The notes beneath the pieces are model-generated. The model was not told where the DNA came from. It did no database searches and saw only the letters and a program-made list of their open reading frames with translations. From contig NC_091125.1 of the NCBI RefSeq assembly GCF_040183065.1, forward strand, positions 129,773,121 to 129,837,120: a stretch of DNA of 64,000 nucleotides, in the 5' to 3' direction. Below, piece by piece: positions 5,225 to 25,500 of the stretch. The position numbers and the translations under genes were made by a program. The DNA comes from Periplaneta americana. Taxonomy: Eukaryota; Arthropoda; Insecta; Blattodea; Blattidae. Numbering within the stretch: the first letter of the stretch is position 1; every line of letters starts with the position of its first letter.

Positions 5225-5613
5225 CTTACCATAGCCAGGATTAAGTTCACGGTACAGCCTACGGTACTTGTACAAGAGCGCGACCGTTCGGCTACAAGTA
5301 TAATTCACAAAACAGAAGTGGTAAGCACAATAAGCATCAAGCTGAGGTGTAAATCCCTCGTCCGTAAAAGAGAGAGAGAACTACAGAATAATTAGATAAT
5401 TTGGAGATAATGGATTTTTTCGAAATATTAAAGCCTAATGAAAACTATCAAATTGATCATTTCATAGTTATATTCTACTGTCGAATAAGTTTCCAATACT
5501 TGCTATTAGTAAATTAACAAGTATTGATTATGTAGTGTGTTTTCCTATTACATTCTATTGTTTTTGGATAATTTATTTGTGCTTGCTTAAAGGATATTTT
5601 ATTGTCATAATAA
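5225..5613. other. Unassigned spacer
   Basis: No gene recognised. The stretch 5525-5560 (TTATGTAGTGTGTTTTCCTA) recurs imperfectly at 7019-7056, on the other side of the CACTG element. Confidence 0.35.
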
Positions 5614-5616
5614 TAA

Positions 5617-6778
5617 CACTGAACAAAATTTTGCTCCGACTTAAAACAATGCGTCCCTTATAGTTTGATGTGCGCTGAATTCGAGAATGCATCTCTTTTC
5701 TTCGTATCACGTAAGGTTTTTAAGATATGCTATGATTTCACTTTTCGATAAGTGCTTCCCCAGAAACATCTGGCGCGGTTTGGGAGCATAAACCTAAACA
5801 AAAGCTAATGCATTTTATGAGTTTATGGCTTATTTCCGGTTTCTTATGGTTGTTGGCATGTTGTTTTGTACTTCTAATAAATAAACAGATATTGGTCCCT
5901 TCTATTAAGTAAATTTCATAACAGTTCAAAGTGAGGTATATGCAATGAACAAACAAAGGTGTGGGTTTCAGTATTTAAAGGAAAAGTTTACCAGTTTGAG
6001 TGAAGGCGAATTAAAAGAGGACATTTTCATTGATCCACAAATTCACAAAGTTATGGCTGACCCTTTGTTTGAGGAAAAACTTTCCGTTACAGAAAGAATG
6101 GCATGGCGCTCTTTCAAAGATGTTTGCTCAAATTTACTTGGAAATTCTGGGGCAGAGCACTACATAGAACTTGTTGTGGAAACCATAAGTGCATATGACA
6201 AAATGGAGTGTAATATTTCTCTCAAAATACACTTTTTAGATTCTCATTTAAATTTCTTTTCTCCTAAATTTGGAGCGGTAAACGACGAGCATGGGGAAAG
6301 ATTTCATCAAGAAATATCTGATATGGAAAGGCGATATAAAGGAAGATCATCATCCAGTATGCTTGCAGACTATTGTTGGTTGCTTGTAAATGACAGTTCC
6401 GGGTCTAGTTATAAACAGAAGTTATTCAGAAAATTATTTTAAATATAAGTTCAAATTCCGAGATTTCTCTCATTATACGCATGAAATATTTTTACTGTTG
6501 TTGTGTTTTAAACTATGTAACATTTTTTGTATCCAGTACACATTTTTCAAGTATTATGAGGAGTTTTGAATCCCTAATGTGTTGTAATTTTATCAGTAGC
6601 GGTGAAAAATTAAAAACAAATTAGTTTTTTCATAAAAAATTAAATTCATTTTCCCAGGAAAATGGTACGTGATGCGGTAATTTGGATTTTAAATTTAGAT
6701 TTATGGCACACATATTAGTATTATTCACCTATGTTTTAATCCGGAGCAAGACAAAAAGTAAAAATTTGTTGTTCAGTG
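5617..6778 (+). mobile_element. CACTG-ended DNA transposon carrying a conserved ORF
   Basis: Both ends are inverted repeats. The left end reads CACTGAACAAAATTTTGCTC then CGACTTAAAACA. The right end, on the minus strand, reads CACTGAACAACAAATTTTT and, after a short extra segment, TTGCTCCGGATTAAAACA. TAA triplets flank it directly (614-616 of the 5-kb block, i.e. 5614-5616, and 6779-6781). The 1,162-bp unit encloses a 165-codon ORF at 5945-6442. CACTG ends with a 3-bp duplication suggest an EnSpm/CMC-like or Harbinger-like group. The class is inferred. Confidence 0.68.
5945..6442 (+). CDS. Conserved arthropod repeat-family protein, partial (putative transposase C-terminus)
   Basis: The frame encodes 165 residues ending in a stop before the right end of the CACTG element. 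Notable motifs are ISLKIHFLDSHLNFF (91-105), DEHGERFHQ (114-122), MERRYKG (127-133) and ADYCW (141-145). I recall similar multi-copy uncharacterised proteins from arthropod genomes, but they are usually longer, so the N-terminal part is probably deleted. The ATG chosen is simply the first in frame. A second diverged copy lies at 22681-22997 with the same residues in register. The K-x-H...H...E-x-G-E-x-x-H spacing resembles the last catalytic segment of some cut-and-paste transposases. That is inference. No function is established. Confidence 0.6.
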   Translation: MNKQRCGFQYLKEKFTSLSEGELKEDIFIDPQIHKVMADPLFEEKLSVTERMAWRSFKDVCSNLLGNSGAEHYIELVVETISAYDKMECNISLKIHFLDSHLNFFSPKFGAVNDEHGERFHQEISDMERRYKGRSSSSMLADYCWLLVNDSSGSSYKQKLFRKLF

Positions 6779-6781
6779 TAA

Positions 6782-7848
6782 TTAGTCCGAGGCCACAGGG
6801 TGAGAAATAATTATTTTATCGCAAGAAACATGAGTTTAAATTCTAAATTAAATTACCGAAGAAAATGTATTTCCTTAAATGAAATTCGGTCAGACATTTC
6901 TGAGAAAGGCGCCAGCAGTATGTTTCTAGTGACAAAATGCCATTAAGTACAGTTGTGGATTAGTTCCACAAATGTCCGTTTGCACAGATATTTCAATGAA
7001 TTATTAAATAACATATTCATTATGTAGTGTCTTTGTCCTATTGCATTCTATAGTTTTCTTCGAAATCAAGGATACAAATAAAAGCCTTGGTCTCCTGCAA
7101 TATGAAGTTCACTGGTAAATATTTGGTAATAGCCGTAGAAATTATGATTATTGAAATATCACAATATTCGACAAAATATATTTGACGTTATTACATTTTA
7201 TTCTAAAGTGGGTAGGTCTGCTTCTATTTAGTTGTTACATTTTACATTATTTTACAACCGTTTCTCTGTAATAATTCTCACCGTTCTTTATCTTCACATT
7301 ATACGTGCACGTAGCGGGACTCCTTGTACGTGTAATCAGCATGACGCCGGGTCTCCAGCTTGAGAGAACACAAAATATCGCAATCGCAATGGCAAAGGAC
7401 AAACACGCATTCTGGTTCGAGGACATGGCCGTGAATTTAACACAAGGGAAAGCTGAACTCTTTAGTCGTTGCAGACCAGCATCGTCACCAAATTTAAATT
7501 GTATTCTCAGAATTTCGTTTTGAGGTCTCTGAAACAAACTCTTTGAATTAAGGAATGCACTTGCGTTAGTCGTTATCTGTAAAGGTTTTGGAACGTGAAT
7601 CATTGAACCGATATGACTTCTCCGACCTAATCAAAGCGATTTGCTTCGATGGACGCAGAAAATCTCTCGTTACGATGCTGTTCTACATGCAGGAAAAGCT
7701 GATCGTGAAACAGTTCACGGTTCCTATAGTATCGTACTGTACAATCTTCTATAATTGATGATTTCAATAATTTCAGACTATTTTCTTCCAAAGGGGAATG
7801 AAGCAGAGAGAAATTACTACGGTACGGGTACTTGATGATTTTTAAGAA
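6782..7848. other. Unassigned intergenic sequence
   Basis: AT-rich, with no coding homology I recognise. It contains the second copy (7019-7056) of the short direct repeat noted at 5525. Confidence 0.35.
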
Positions 7849-19500: not shown

Positions 19501-22500
19501 TTTTTTCCTAACATCCGGTCTCTAACTAAGCTATGAAAACTCTTAGCTGCTGAGTTTATCATGTAGTACTACTGCACTCTATCCTGGCAGACAATTCCCA
19601 GCTATCATAAATGTTTAAAATATGTAGGTCCTTCTTTAGATTGTCTAAATATCTAAGCCTATATCTTCCCAGTGGTGCTTTGCCTAAAGGATATTCTGTG
19701 AACACCCTTTTTACTCCTCTTTCTTCTGGAGGTCTTAGCACATATCCAATCCATCACAGTCAATATGGCATACTTAAGTGGTCCCAAAGTAATGAAGAGG
19801 TGATATGTGAGGAATTGTCTGACAGCCCTCCTGGCTGGGTCATATGGACCTGTCAACAAAGGCAGGTGTGGTCCTTCAAACAGTTTAGAGGTTATGTGTA
19901 GGTCTAAGTAATATAACTGCTACGAGGCGTGTTCTTAAAGTAAGTTCAAAAGGGTGTAGTAAGTAAACGGGAAGATATTTACAAACCATTTTTGTTGCAT
20001 TGTATTCCCCACACTTCAATTACTTCTCAATATAATTTCCACCATTATTGAGGCATTTAGAGTCGTGGCACAAGTCTTTCTATCCCTTCATTGTAGAATT
20101 CGCCTGCCTGCAATGCGAACCACTCCCAAACTGCTGTTTTCACTTAATCGTCGACATCAAAATGTTGACCACTGAGGAACTTCTTGAGGTGCAGGAAGAG
20201 ATGTCACTCGGAGCCAAATGCGGGCTGTAGGGGTGATGGTCAATTTGTTCCCAGCCAAATTTCGAGATGCAATTTTGGGTGTCACGAGCTGTGTGTGGCA
20301 GAGCGTTGTCATGAAGCAACACAACTCCGTCAGTCAGCATCTCACGTCTCTTGTTCTGAATTGCGTGATGGAGCTTCTTCATGGTCTGACAATAGGTTTC
20401 TCTATTAATGGTTTCACCCCGAGGCAAGAATTTTATGAGTAGGACTCCTTTTCTGTCCCAAAAAAACAGTGCACATGATCTTCCGTGTTGACATGGTTTG
20501 TTTGAATTTCTTTTTCCTTGGCAATGCAGTATGCCTCCATTCCATGGACTGCTGCTTTGATTCAGGTGTCATATGAGACACCCAAGTCTAGTCACCTGTC
20601 ACGATATGGTCAGGAAACTCATCGTCTTGCTCACTGTAATATGTGAGAAAGCTCAATACATTGGATGCTCGTTTAGTTTTGTGTTCCTTGGTGAGCATCT
20701 TGGGTACTCATTGTGAGCACAATTTTCGATATCATAATCAATCTGTTACAATTTTGTAGAGAACACTCCGCGACATTTGTGGAAAATTCAAGGAAAGCGA
20801 AGAAATTGTGAACCTCCTGTCCTCATGAATTTTTTCATCGACAGCACGCACCAAATCATTGATCAAAGATGGCCGACCAGTATGCTGCTCGTCATGCACA
20901 GACATGGGGCCCTCGTTGAACTTCCTAATCCATCTCCTGACCATTCCATCACTAATGGCATCATCACCATACACCTCACAAAGTTGACGATGAATGTCAG
21001 CTGGTTTGATGTTTCTTGCATTCAAGAAATGGATAACAGACTGCATCTCAGTCGGCAGGGTGCTCGATCACTTTAAACATTTCAACTGATCACAACTAAC
21101 CACACACACGGACTGAAGCTCTGAAACTGCATGCACAGCTTGCCTGAGGACTGAAGAAGAAAACATACATGCGCAAAATAACAATTGCAGCGATGCGAAG
21201 GCTATAATTGAAAATGGAACTTTAAGAAAATGCCTCGTATAATGTAAAATATGGTGCCTACATTAAAGCGGTTATATTTTTTTGCTACATCACCATCCAA
21301 TATCTTTCTTTATCTTTACTCTAAACCCACTCTGTGTAAGAAATATTTGAGAGCAAGAGAATTAATGGTTTTATTGCCAAGAACTCTGCTTTAGTTAATA
21401 ACACATTAGGATATTAAGGGGAGGTTGTAAGCCCTATCCTCGCCGTGTTAAATTTAGCAGCTTCAGGTACATTTATCTCAGAAACTATTCAATCTACATT
21501 TATGAAAATTTGCACACCTGTAGTTGTGATCTTCCTTAACCTACCGACTTTTTCTTAATTTATTAGTTCAGCTAAAAACCAAAAGATGTTAATTTTGGTC
21601 CAAATCAGCTTACAACCTCCCCTTAAGTGGTAGAGTGCTTACTATTCCAGTTGCTAGCTTAGGACAGTGACAGTGCTAAAGGCAAGAGCTGGCAGAGCAG
21701 ATTGTTGGCTTAATTTTAAGTAACTTTCTTTATTAGAAGAGAGAGAATGAGGAACATTGTTTACAGTTCTTAACCTTGTTTGTATTGGTATTTAATTTTT
21801 TTCTTTTTCTTCTACAGGACAGAATGACTCTACAGTTAGTGTTCCACCACCAGAACCCATCCCACATAACAAAACCACTACCGAACCACCAACCACTACA
21901 TCACCTACTACTACTACTCCTACTCCTACTACTACTAGTCCAAATAAAACCACCACCACCACCACAACTACTACAACTTCAACTACGCCATCTACCACTG
22001 TTACAACTCCAACCACCCTTGCTCCAAATACTACTCATGCTCCGAATACTACCTTTGCTCCTACTACTTCACCAGCTCCCCCTACAACTGCAATACCGCC
22101 TAAACCAACTCCAGAGAAGCCTGAAGTTGGTACTTGGTATATTACTAACGCCACCAACAATGTGACTTGCATCATGGCCAAGATGGCAATTCAGTTCAAC
22201 ATCACATATGAAACCACTAAAAATACGGTGAGTATGGACTACTGTGTTCTTAAAATCCATCATTATGGTACTAGACAGCGAAGTCTGGACTGACTGTCAT
22301 TCCTTCTAGCAATTGACGAGACTGAAGTTGAGCTAACTGGAGGCGAAACTTTGTTTTGAATTTGATATTTTCACATGAGAAAACTGGTTGAGATGAATGA
22401 TGACTAGATCCCTAATTGAAGAGTAGGATTGCTTGACAAGAGAATTGACAAATGTTGGTAGATTTAATATACTGGTACCGTATATGTGGGTAGATTTAAT

Positions 22501-25500
22501 ATACCATTTATGAGAATCTAATTTGTTGGAGAGGGATCACCACGTCCCAAAGATTAACGTTTAAGAAATAGAGAAGTAGGAAAGAATGCATTACAGAGTG
22601 ACATGAAAGTCTTGAGATTTCACTTCTTAGCTGGAGCCCATTTCACAAAGGTATGGTGTTGTATGTTATAGATTACTGATGCCTGGAACAACTTTGCCTT
22701 GGTTGTTAAACACTTTCTTGATAACCATAAGGTTGACAATTATGAGGAACTGGTATAAACTTAAAAAAATTTGGGTGCTACAATGAGCATAAAAGTTAAC
22801 TTTCTTCATAGACACTTAGAAGACCGGTTTCCAGATAATCTTGGTGCTTTTAGTGAGGAACAAGGGAGAGGTTTCCCCAAGATATAAAGGTAATGGAAGA
22901 AAGATACCATGAAAGGTGGGATGTGCATATGATGGCTGACTACTGCTGGAATCAACATGATTGCCCTGATTATCCACACAGAAGAAAATCAAATAGACTG
23001 GGATTTGTTGTGTTAATTGGGATTATTTTTCATTTTACTGAATTGACTGATATTTTTCATTTCGTGTACTTAGTCTAAAGCAGTTTGATTTTTTTTATGT
23101 AATTTGTGAATAGGTTACACCTTAGCATATACACCTTTATTTTTTGCATTGTTCATGTATTTTAGTGACATACTAAATATCTCAAAAACTCGAGCCAGTC
23201 TGACAAAACTGATGTCATATTTAGAACCAGTGCAACAAATTGACCCTAAAATAACTTTCAGATGATTGTCAACAAAATGTGTGTTGACCACTGTAATAAT
23301 TGTCTCGTTATTTTGCTACAAGAGTCTAATTTCATTTTGAATGTCTTCACCTGGTTTGTTTTCGGATCATGGATTTTTGCTATTGTATTGTAGCTCTGGA
23401 TTTACAAAATATGAATATATAAGGTGTTCATAAAGTTATTCCTGTGGTTTAATACAACTCTGATGATGTTATTTTCTCCTTCAAAATTACTGTGATAAGG
23501 TCCTATAGTGTCTGAAGAAGATTTTGCTGTGAATCCCTGTACCTAAATTTCAGTTTTTCTCCATTAATGAACCATCAGTGGAGGGGGAAAAAGACCTTTG
23601 ACGATGTCGAAACGTAGATGGGAAGATAATATAAAAATGGATGTGAGGAGGTGGGATATGATGGCTAGAGACTGGATTAATCTTGCTCAGAATAGGGACA
23701 GATGGCAGGTTTATGTGAGGGCGTCATTGAATCTCCGGGTTCCTTAAAAGCTATTTGTAAGTAATGACCCATCTGTATATTATATGTAGCCATTCTCCTT
23801 CAGGATATCTCAGGTGTACTGTTTCTATTGCTGCAGTTTTCGTGTATAGTTCATCTATTTTCCTCTTTTTGAGACTGTGTTCTGTTTCACATTGTATTTG
23901 TGGAAGTGTTATTGGCTACAGTGGGTAAATAAGCTTATCAGTATGAGCTCTTGGAGATCGTATTGTTATCTTAGGTGTTGAAACTCCATCTGTGATTTCA
24001 ATTTGTTTGCTATTGTTATCTTCATTACCATATTGTAACCATTTTGGGTCTTTGGTCAGTCTAATAATTTTTTTCATATTGTTCTCCCATAATATTGAAA
24101 AGTACTTGGACATCAGATTTCCTGGATGGACATCTGTGAAAAGGAGGATCTTGTTTGGAAGTTGCTCATTTGATTTTATTGTACTGTTAATGAAATTTTT
24201 TGAAAATATCAGTTGTTGCTGCAATAATTCCTATGTGCAAAATATATAATTTTTCAGTAGGAAGAAAAAACACATTTATTCATTCTGTGGCAGTGTTACA
24301 TAGGAGATGTGAATTATATTTTCTAAAGAAAGAAATACAATTACATATAGTAGATTTTATTATTTGCTGTATCACTATTTAAGTTGTTAAATAGAGCAAA
24401 ACCTGAAAATTGATAAATATGTTGCATAGGAGTTATTGCAGGAACGACAATGGTATGCAAAGGTGTGTATGAAAATATAAAAATTCGAACTCTCTACCAC
24501 CATGACTTTGTTAAAGGGACCAAAATTCTCTCTCCTGTTTTGTAGGTAAAATTACCAGAGAAGCTTAGATTATAATCTTATGGTTTCTGTTAAATGCTGT
24601 TTGCACTAAAAATTTCAACAATAATAACCTCTAGTGCTGCAAAATAGTAAGGTCATGTACCAGTACATTTCTCCTGGATGATGTAACATTTGCACTATCT
24701 TGAGCATCAGTTACGTGCCTAAGAGCTTTACTGGACGTCCATTGAAACTCTCTTTGCTTTATTGTATTGAATTTTACGATGTCGAATTTTTCTGTTAAAA
24801 TCATTTTCGATCAGATCAAATTAAGTCAATGCGATAGTCTTAAATATATATAATGTGTAATTTTGTTCAGAGTTAAAACCTAAAACAGATTTTATTTTTG
24901 AAATGAATCGTTGTTACAATGTTATTTAAATTATTATGTTATAGGCCTCTGGTTAACTTGGAATTTTCTGGAACAGAGTAATTATGCATTTCACTGTACA
25001 TACTTCAGTGCTTCATGTAGTTAGCTTTATTTTAGTTTGGAAACATTCTAGTTATACTGCATTAATTATCAATTACCTGTACTTTAGTTTAGAAAATGTC
25101 TGGATATGGTTCATAAAATGATACCTAACATTTTATAAAAGTGAATAACAAACTCGTAGTTACGTGATTATGCTTTTAATTTGGATTTTTCTGTTTTACT
25201 TGGTTCACTTTTACAGGAATTAATACACTGGTAATGGCGAGTTGATTGCTGAAGCATGAAGGGGTTTCGTGGCTGAAAAGAAAATAATCTAGAATTGAAC
25301 AGAAATTTGAACTCGAGAATTTTGTATTATCAGAAAATTTTCCTGGGTATAGTACTTTTTTGTGACTTAATGACTGTTACAAAACCTGTTGTGTATTAAG
25401 CTTATTTCTAATGTTAAAATACGATTAGTTAAACATTAATTTCTCAAGTGTGAACTGAAACTTCTGCATCATTTCGAGTTGATTTAATGAATGGATCCAG

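Follow-up and report, generated by a model that had tools for sequence, protein, structure and literature searches.

The stretch of the Periplaneta americana genome analysed here (contig NC_091125.1, positions 129,773,121 to 129,837,120; 64,000 nucleotides, 35.5% GC, hereafter the window) contains, at positions 5617–6778, a short DNA element with inverted CACTG ends, a TAA triplet on either side and a single noted open reading frame (ORF) inside. This element is very probably a non-autonomous, internally deleted, many-copy member of the Chapaev3 group (CMC clade of the DDE transposons), mobilised in trans and carrying its ORF as a passenger. Its parts are the following:

5614..5616, unstranded: left target-site duplication TAA, preceded by A (sequence, copies and empty sites)
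5617..5648, + strand: left inverted end, with the outer block CACTGAACAA at 5617–5626 and the inner block TTGCTCCGACTTAAAACA at 5631–5648 (sequence, repeat search and consensus alignment)
5649..5944, + strand: 5' non-coding part, with a putative internal-deletion junction at its end, directly upstream of the ORF (copy alignment)
5945..6442, + strand: ORF of 165 codons, very probably the C-terminal third of a Chapaev3-type transposase, a passenger that is neutral among copies
6230..6247, + strand: H(4)H motif HFLDSH, residues 96–101 (a motif named in PMC4079192)
6284..6310, + strand: DEHGERFHQ, residues 114–122, presumed to hold the third catalytic acidic residue, the exact one being tentative
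6732..6778, − strand: right inverted end, with the inner block at 6732–6749 and the outer block TTGTTCAGTG at 6769–6778
6779..6781, unstranded: right target-site duplication TAA, followed by T (sequence and copies)

At the left boundary of the element the sequence reads TAA followed by CACTGAACAA (5614–5626), and at the right boundary TTGTTCAGTG followed by TAA (6769–6781). A repeat search of the window gave inverted arms of 16 nt (5611–5626 and 6769–6784) that match at 94%, and a second inverted block, TTGCTCCG(AC/GA)TTAAAACA, was recognised by eye at 5631–5648 and 6732–6749 and aligned on the family consensus; TTGCTCCG and CGGAGCAA were both located in the window by sequence search. This inner block, composed of TTGCTCCG, two differing bases and TTAAAACA and separated from the outer block by spacers of unequal length, extends the inverted ends beyond those described in the initial annotation. 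The inverted repeat alone is little proof of a transposon, since its perfect outer core is 10 bp long and the window contains many longer perfect inverted pairs.

The whole genome (3,231,669,367 bases in 91 contigs, the window lying on contig 9) was searched with the element as a DNA query, giving 3,365 first-look candidates, 40 of them scored, and 41 reported matches; by manual count, 31 of the 41 matches listed span the element end to end with 85–100% identity. The copies ranked 1–28 (L001–L028) were inspected together with their flanks. They diverge by 2.7–5.5% from their consensus, and in all 28 both CAC..GTG ends could be placed, with point changes (7–9 of 9 bases on the left, 6–9 of 9 on the right). 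Identical 3-bp flanks, all of them TWA, border 21 of the 28 copies; on the left side TTA occurs 15 times and TAA 11 times, an A precedes the duplication in 27 copies and a T follows it in 25. The 39-base consensus left end has 335 exact matches in the genome versus none for its reversed control, a number that, at the observed divergence, suggests a couple of thousand copies. The window copy itself sits inside another dispersed repeat. A query made of its flanks joined with one TAA yielded 129 first-look candidates and 40 matches, of which, counted manually, 27 cross the junction with at least 10 bases on each side, two are the window's own flanks and 11 stop short of crossing it that far. Three of these matches (L093, L094 and L095) were aligned base by base and are continuous, with the element absent; L093 is ungapped near the junction, and L094 and L095 are one TAA unit shorter in the adjoining TAA run. 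Since such empty sites read through without the element, its insertion is demonstrated, while the 3-bp size of the duplication is taken from the 28 copies and not from the AT-rich window site. Thus both the proposed transposon with CACTG ends and the reading of its TAA triplets as a target duplication, now of the TWA class, are borne out. A direct repeat of ~60 bp (85%) flanks the element at 5505–5564 and 7000–7057, and may be part of the older dispersed repeat hit by the insertion.

The ORF does carry the DEHGERFHQ hallmark reported for it, and a Pfam search with its 165 amino acids assigned no family (best E 0.088, under that family's cut-off). Its identity comes from longer relatives in the same genome, searched for with a longer protein sequence; among the 129 scored of 22,982 candidates the best shows 74% identity over 304 amino acids (E 6e-157), and the relatives group into several families. 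The window ORF aligns with them, at 43–55% identity, only from just before GFxYL to the end, a part comprising H(4)H and the Glu motif, and the similarity starts at 5909–5963; H(4)H is the only one of the motifs C(2)C, LH and H(4)H present in it. The initial annotation had suggested a transposase or accessory C-terminus, of which the former stands through these relatives and the latter finds no support, the ORF evolving neutrally among copies. The protein was also described as multi-copy and unannotated in arthropods; it is multicopy in this genome, rather than a single-copy orthologue in the data examined, and nameless in Pfam. A second relic of the same C-terminal region, decayed, frame-broken and with no ends found, lies at 22681..23006 (+ strand; E 4e-9 in the window search, down to 6e-20 with a longer relative) and derives from another copy or family.

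Family A has a consensus of 2,306 bp with the ends CACTGGTCGACAAG and CACTAGTCGACAAAAATG and a 564-codon frame with MPRKC near its start; the frame is whole in none of the 18 copies used, the longest having 535 codons. Family B is represented by L092, of 2,320 bp, with the ends CACTGTACAACA, the flanks ATTA..TTAT and a 529-aa frame; its members show 3-bp duplications in five of five cases, TWA in four. Family C (L080, L081 and L088) has left ends CACTG or CACTC, and family D (L089 and L090) has frames of 587 and 576 amino acids, stop to stop, and the right end CCAGTG. Longer copies without CACTG ends had been named as a possible refutation; families A and B bear CACTG/CACTA-type ends on both sides, and families C and D on the one side identified. 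A short class of family B (L084–L087; 1,546–1,548 bp, the four ~98% identical to one another) has lost the N-terminal part: L084 lacks an internal stretch of L092 and retains, within a single open frame of 349 aa, the zinc motifs as well as D, D and E, a truncated transposase whose catalytic core looks complete; L085 and L087 are interrupted by stops.

Common to the aligned relatives are FID, a CGD-type second Asp, C(2)C, LH, H(4)H and GERFH, with the exceptions of CSD in L070, CED and DDMGE in L089, SFLC for CFLC in L080 and, in L090, PPLP (no LH) and RFLHSH (first His of H(4)H gone). C(2)C, LH and H(4)H are present together in L060, L070, L084, L092 and L089. With four long relatives as queries and an E limit of 10, Pfam named no transposase family; it contains one for CACTA transposases. 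The structure comparison with DDE transposases proposed in the initial annotation gave a match: the predicted fold of one longer relative corresponds to HzTransib and RAG1 over ~300 residues, and the longer relatives have a DDE triad in a predicted RNase H-like fold. The predicted model of the 165-aa ORF is all helix, with the RNase H strands absent. A complete short enzyme is rejected on this strandless model and the absence of both Asp. In the fold comparison DEHGE falls within the helix that would carry the last acidic residue of a RAG1/Transib-like DDE enzyme, in line with the catalytic Glu suggested for this motif; which Glu would be catalytic is only predicted.

A direct full-length parent was sought with a chimeric query; none closer than 60–64% was found among the 150 scored of 20,138 candidates, and 20 of the scored matches (manual count) cover the upstream part, all with 60–64% identity, a result that bounds but does not exclude a parent. 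A relative of 38% identity, L091 (JAIRTY010000394.1, 32–407), comes from a Nocardiopsaceae metagenome-assembled genome, where it sits on a short contig, and is probably insect host contamination.

The placement in Chapaev3 is based on a comparison of features with published descriptions. According to PMC4079192, Chapaev3/Chapaev elements begin with CAC and end with GTG, duplicate TWA between A and T and have the C(2)C, LH and H(4)H motifs; Garfield_BM measures 2,289 bp and encodes a 556-aa transposase, and deletion derivatives reach high copy number. The features of the ends and the duplication are found in the window family, and those of the transposase in the longer relatives. The superfamily, which the initial annotation took to be poorly described, is therefore already known; what is new is the Chapaev3-type identity of an unannotated protein, a non-autonomous family described together with its ends, duplication and empty site, and the evidence for its ORF being a passenger.

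Some points can be held against the assignment: it was made by description, with nothing named by Pfam; family A duplications are irregular, exact at 3 bp in six of 18 copies, and fit Chapaev3 less well; and EnSpm also has CAC..GTG ends and 3-bp duplications (PMC12730594), so that these traits do not discriminate. The element could accordingly belong to EnSpm/CACTA, Plavaka or an undescribed lineage of the CMC clade, but this is unlikely, as TWA inside A and T in the window family, a ~560-aa transposase in a 2.3-kb element and the C(2)C, LH and H(4)H set are what is stated for Chapaev3, and the sizes of the relatives parallel those of Garfield_BM (PMC4079192).

As a Chapaev3 derivative, the element would descend from an ancestor of ~2.3 kb, encoding a ~560-aa transposase, that lost the N-terminal part and most of the catalytic core (both Asp, C(2)C and LH) and kept both ends and the last 165 codons with H(4)H and the Glu motif. 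It is regarded as non-autonomous because its ends are conserved and its coding part is truncated. A full-length Chapaev3 transposase, acting in trans, would presumably bind the CACTG ends, and cut-and-paste insertion between the A and T of ATWAT sites would duplicate TWA; the retained ORF would have been a passenger, drifting neutrally since the copies arose. A family B-like transposase is a plausible candidate helper, because the right end of the window-family consensus is 87% identical to family B elements over the outer 30 bp.

Whether the ORF is under selection was judged on the 28 copies, the expectation being the same changes placed at random. Singleton changes comprise 47 synonymous, 179 replacement and 14 stop changes versus 50.3, 174.9 and 14.8 expected, and shared changes 22, 65 and 3 versus 20.2, 65.0 and 4.8; the replacement/silent ratio is thus 1.1 (singletons) and 0.92 (shared) of the neutral expectation. 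A premature stop or frameshift occurs in 14 of the 28 copies; of the remaining copies, two no longer have a start codon, two run through the aligned frame with no stop, and in one the stop comes ten codons too soon. There is little sign of selection on the ORF, which behaves as a neutral passenger among copies, and selection for a short protein is rejected by replacement and stop counts near the random expectation.

Some observations nevertheless weigh against neutrality and would suit a 165-aa protein functional in itself, for example a truncated transposase repressing or helping the full-length enzyme, with the element as the carrier of a regulator. KP, a short P element of Drosophila, has a truncated transposase of this kind. 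In the family consensus the ORF is intact, with 178 codons from stop to stop, and half of the copies lack an early stop or frameshift. Substitutions amount to 3.5% in the ORF versus 4.5% outside, and deletion events number 7 in the 501 bp of the ORF versus 41 in the 670 bp outside; these lower values are the sole hint of selection among copies, and base composition and AT-rich runs outside may account for them. Between the window ORF and families A and B the proportion of replacement differences (pN, 0.27–0.28) is far below that of silent ones (pS, 0.85–0.98), but this is taken to reflect selection that acted on the full-length ancestor. With the near-neutral counts and a predicted model that is all helix, a functional short protein is very unlikely, and a further proposal, that the C-terminal fragment is a separately encoded Chapaev3 regulator (dominant-negative or subunit) that drove the spread of the element, is given only a slim chance. 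A conserved host gene or domesticated transposase lying by chance between inverted repeats, which the conservation of the protein across families might suggest, is ruled out by at least hundreds of dispersed copies with the same ends, empty sites and neutral drift, and merits practically no credence.

Under the Chapaev3 assignment, a multicopy insect protein that is not known to carry an annotation can now be named: whole or in part, it is a transposase of the Chapaev3 type, and gene counts of large insect genomes could be purged of its copies. Given the predicted fold link to Transib and RAG1, these elements may be of use for comparison in work on how RAG1 arose. In the P. americana genome paper (PMC12774602), the text of the repeat section names Tc1-Mariner and hAT as the leading DNA elements and makes no mention of Chapaev3.

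Elsewhere in the window, a broken mariner-type element lies at 20140–21067 (− strand), with a Mos1-type helix-turn-helix domain (PF17906, E 1.6e-9) and a partial DDE domain (PF01359, E 1e-15) in separate frames. A LAMP-like exon frame at 21796–22290 (+ strand) comprises a threonine/proline-rich stretch and then the start of the luminal domain (PF01299, E 5e-5, under the Pfam cut-off). Further perfect inverted pairs, 0.5–2 kb apart (784/1608, 28023/29346, 47481/48703, 56960/57528 and 62352/63172), are possible ends of further DNA elements.

Among known systems, Transib duplicates 5 bp, unlike the 3 bp of the window family, and Transib and RAG1 resemble the longer relative in predicted fold, with only 8–12% sequence identity in the fold alignments. 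They also have C(2)C and H(3-4)H motifs in common with it (PMC12730594). Har-P short P elements of Drosophila are similarly strongly truncated and insert anew with the help of a full-length transposase (PMC6917496); KP and Har-P differ in belonging to another superfamily, and the window element retains the C-terminal part. The closest likeness is to the Chapaev3 elements Garfield_BM, Merrow and Conan, as described in PMC4079192: CAC..GTG ends, TWA between A and T, internal-deletion derivatives amplified to high copy number and, for the Garfield_BM type, an autonomous length of 2.3 kb and a ~556-aa transposase with C(2)C, LH, H(4)H and DDE, the differences being another host, another terminal sequence and the two exons given for Garfield.
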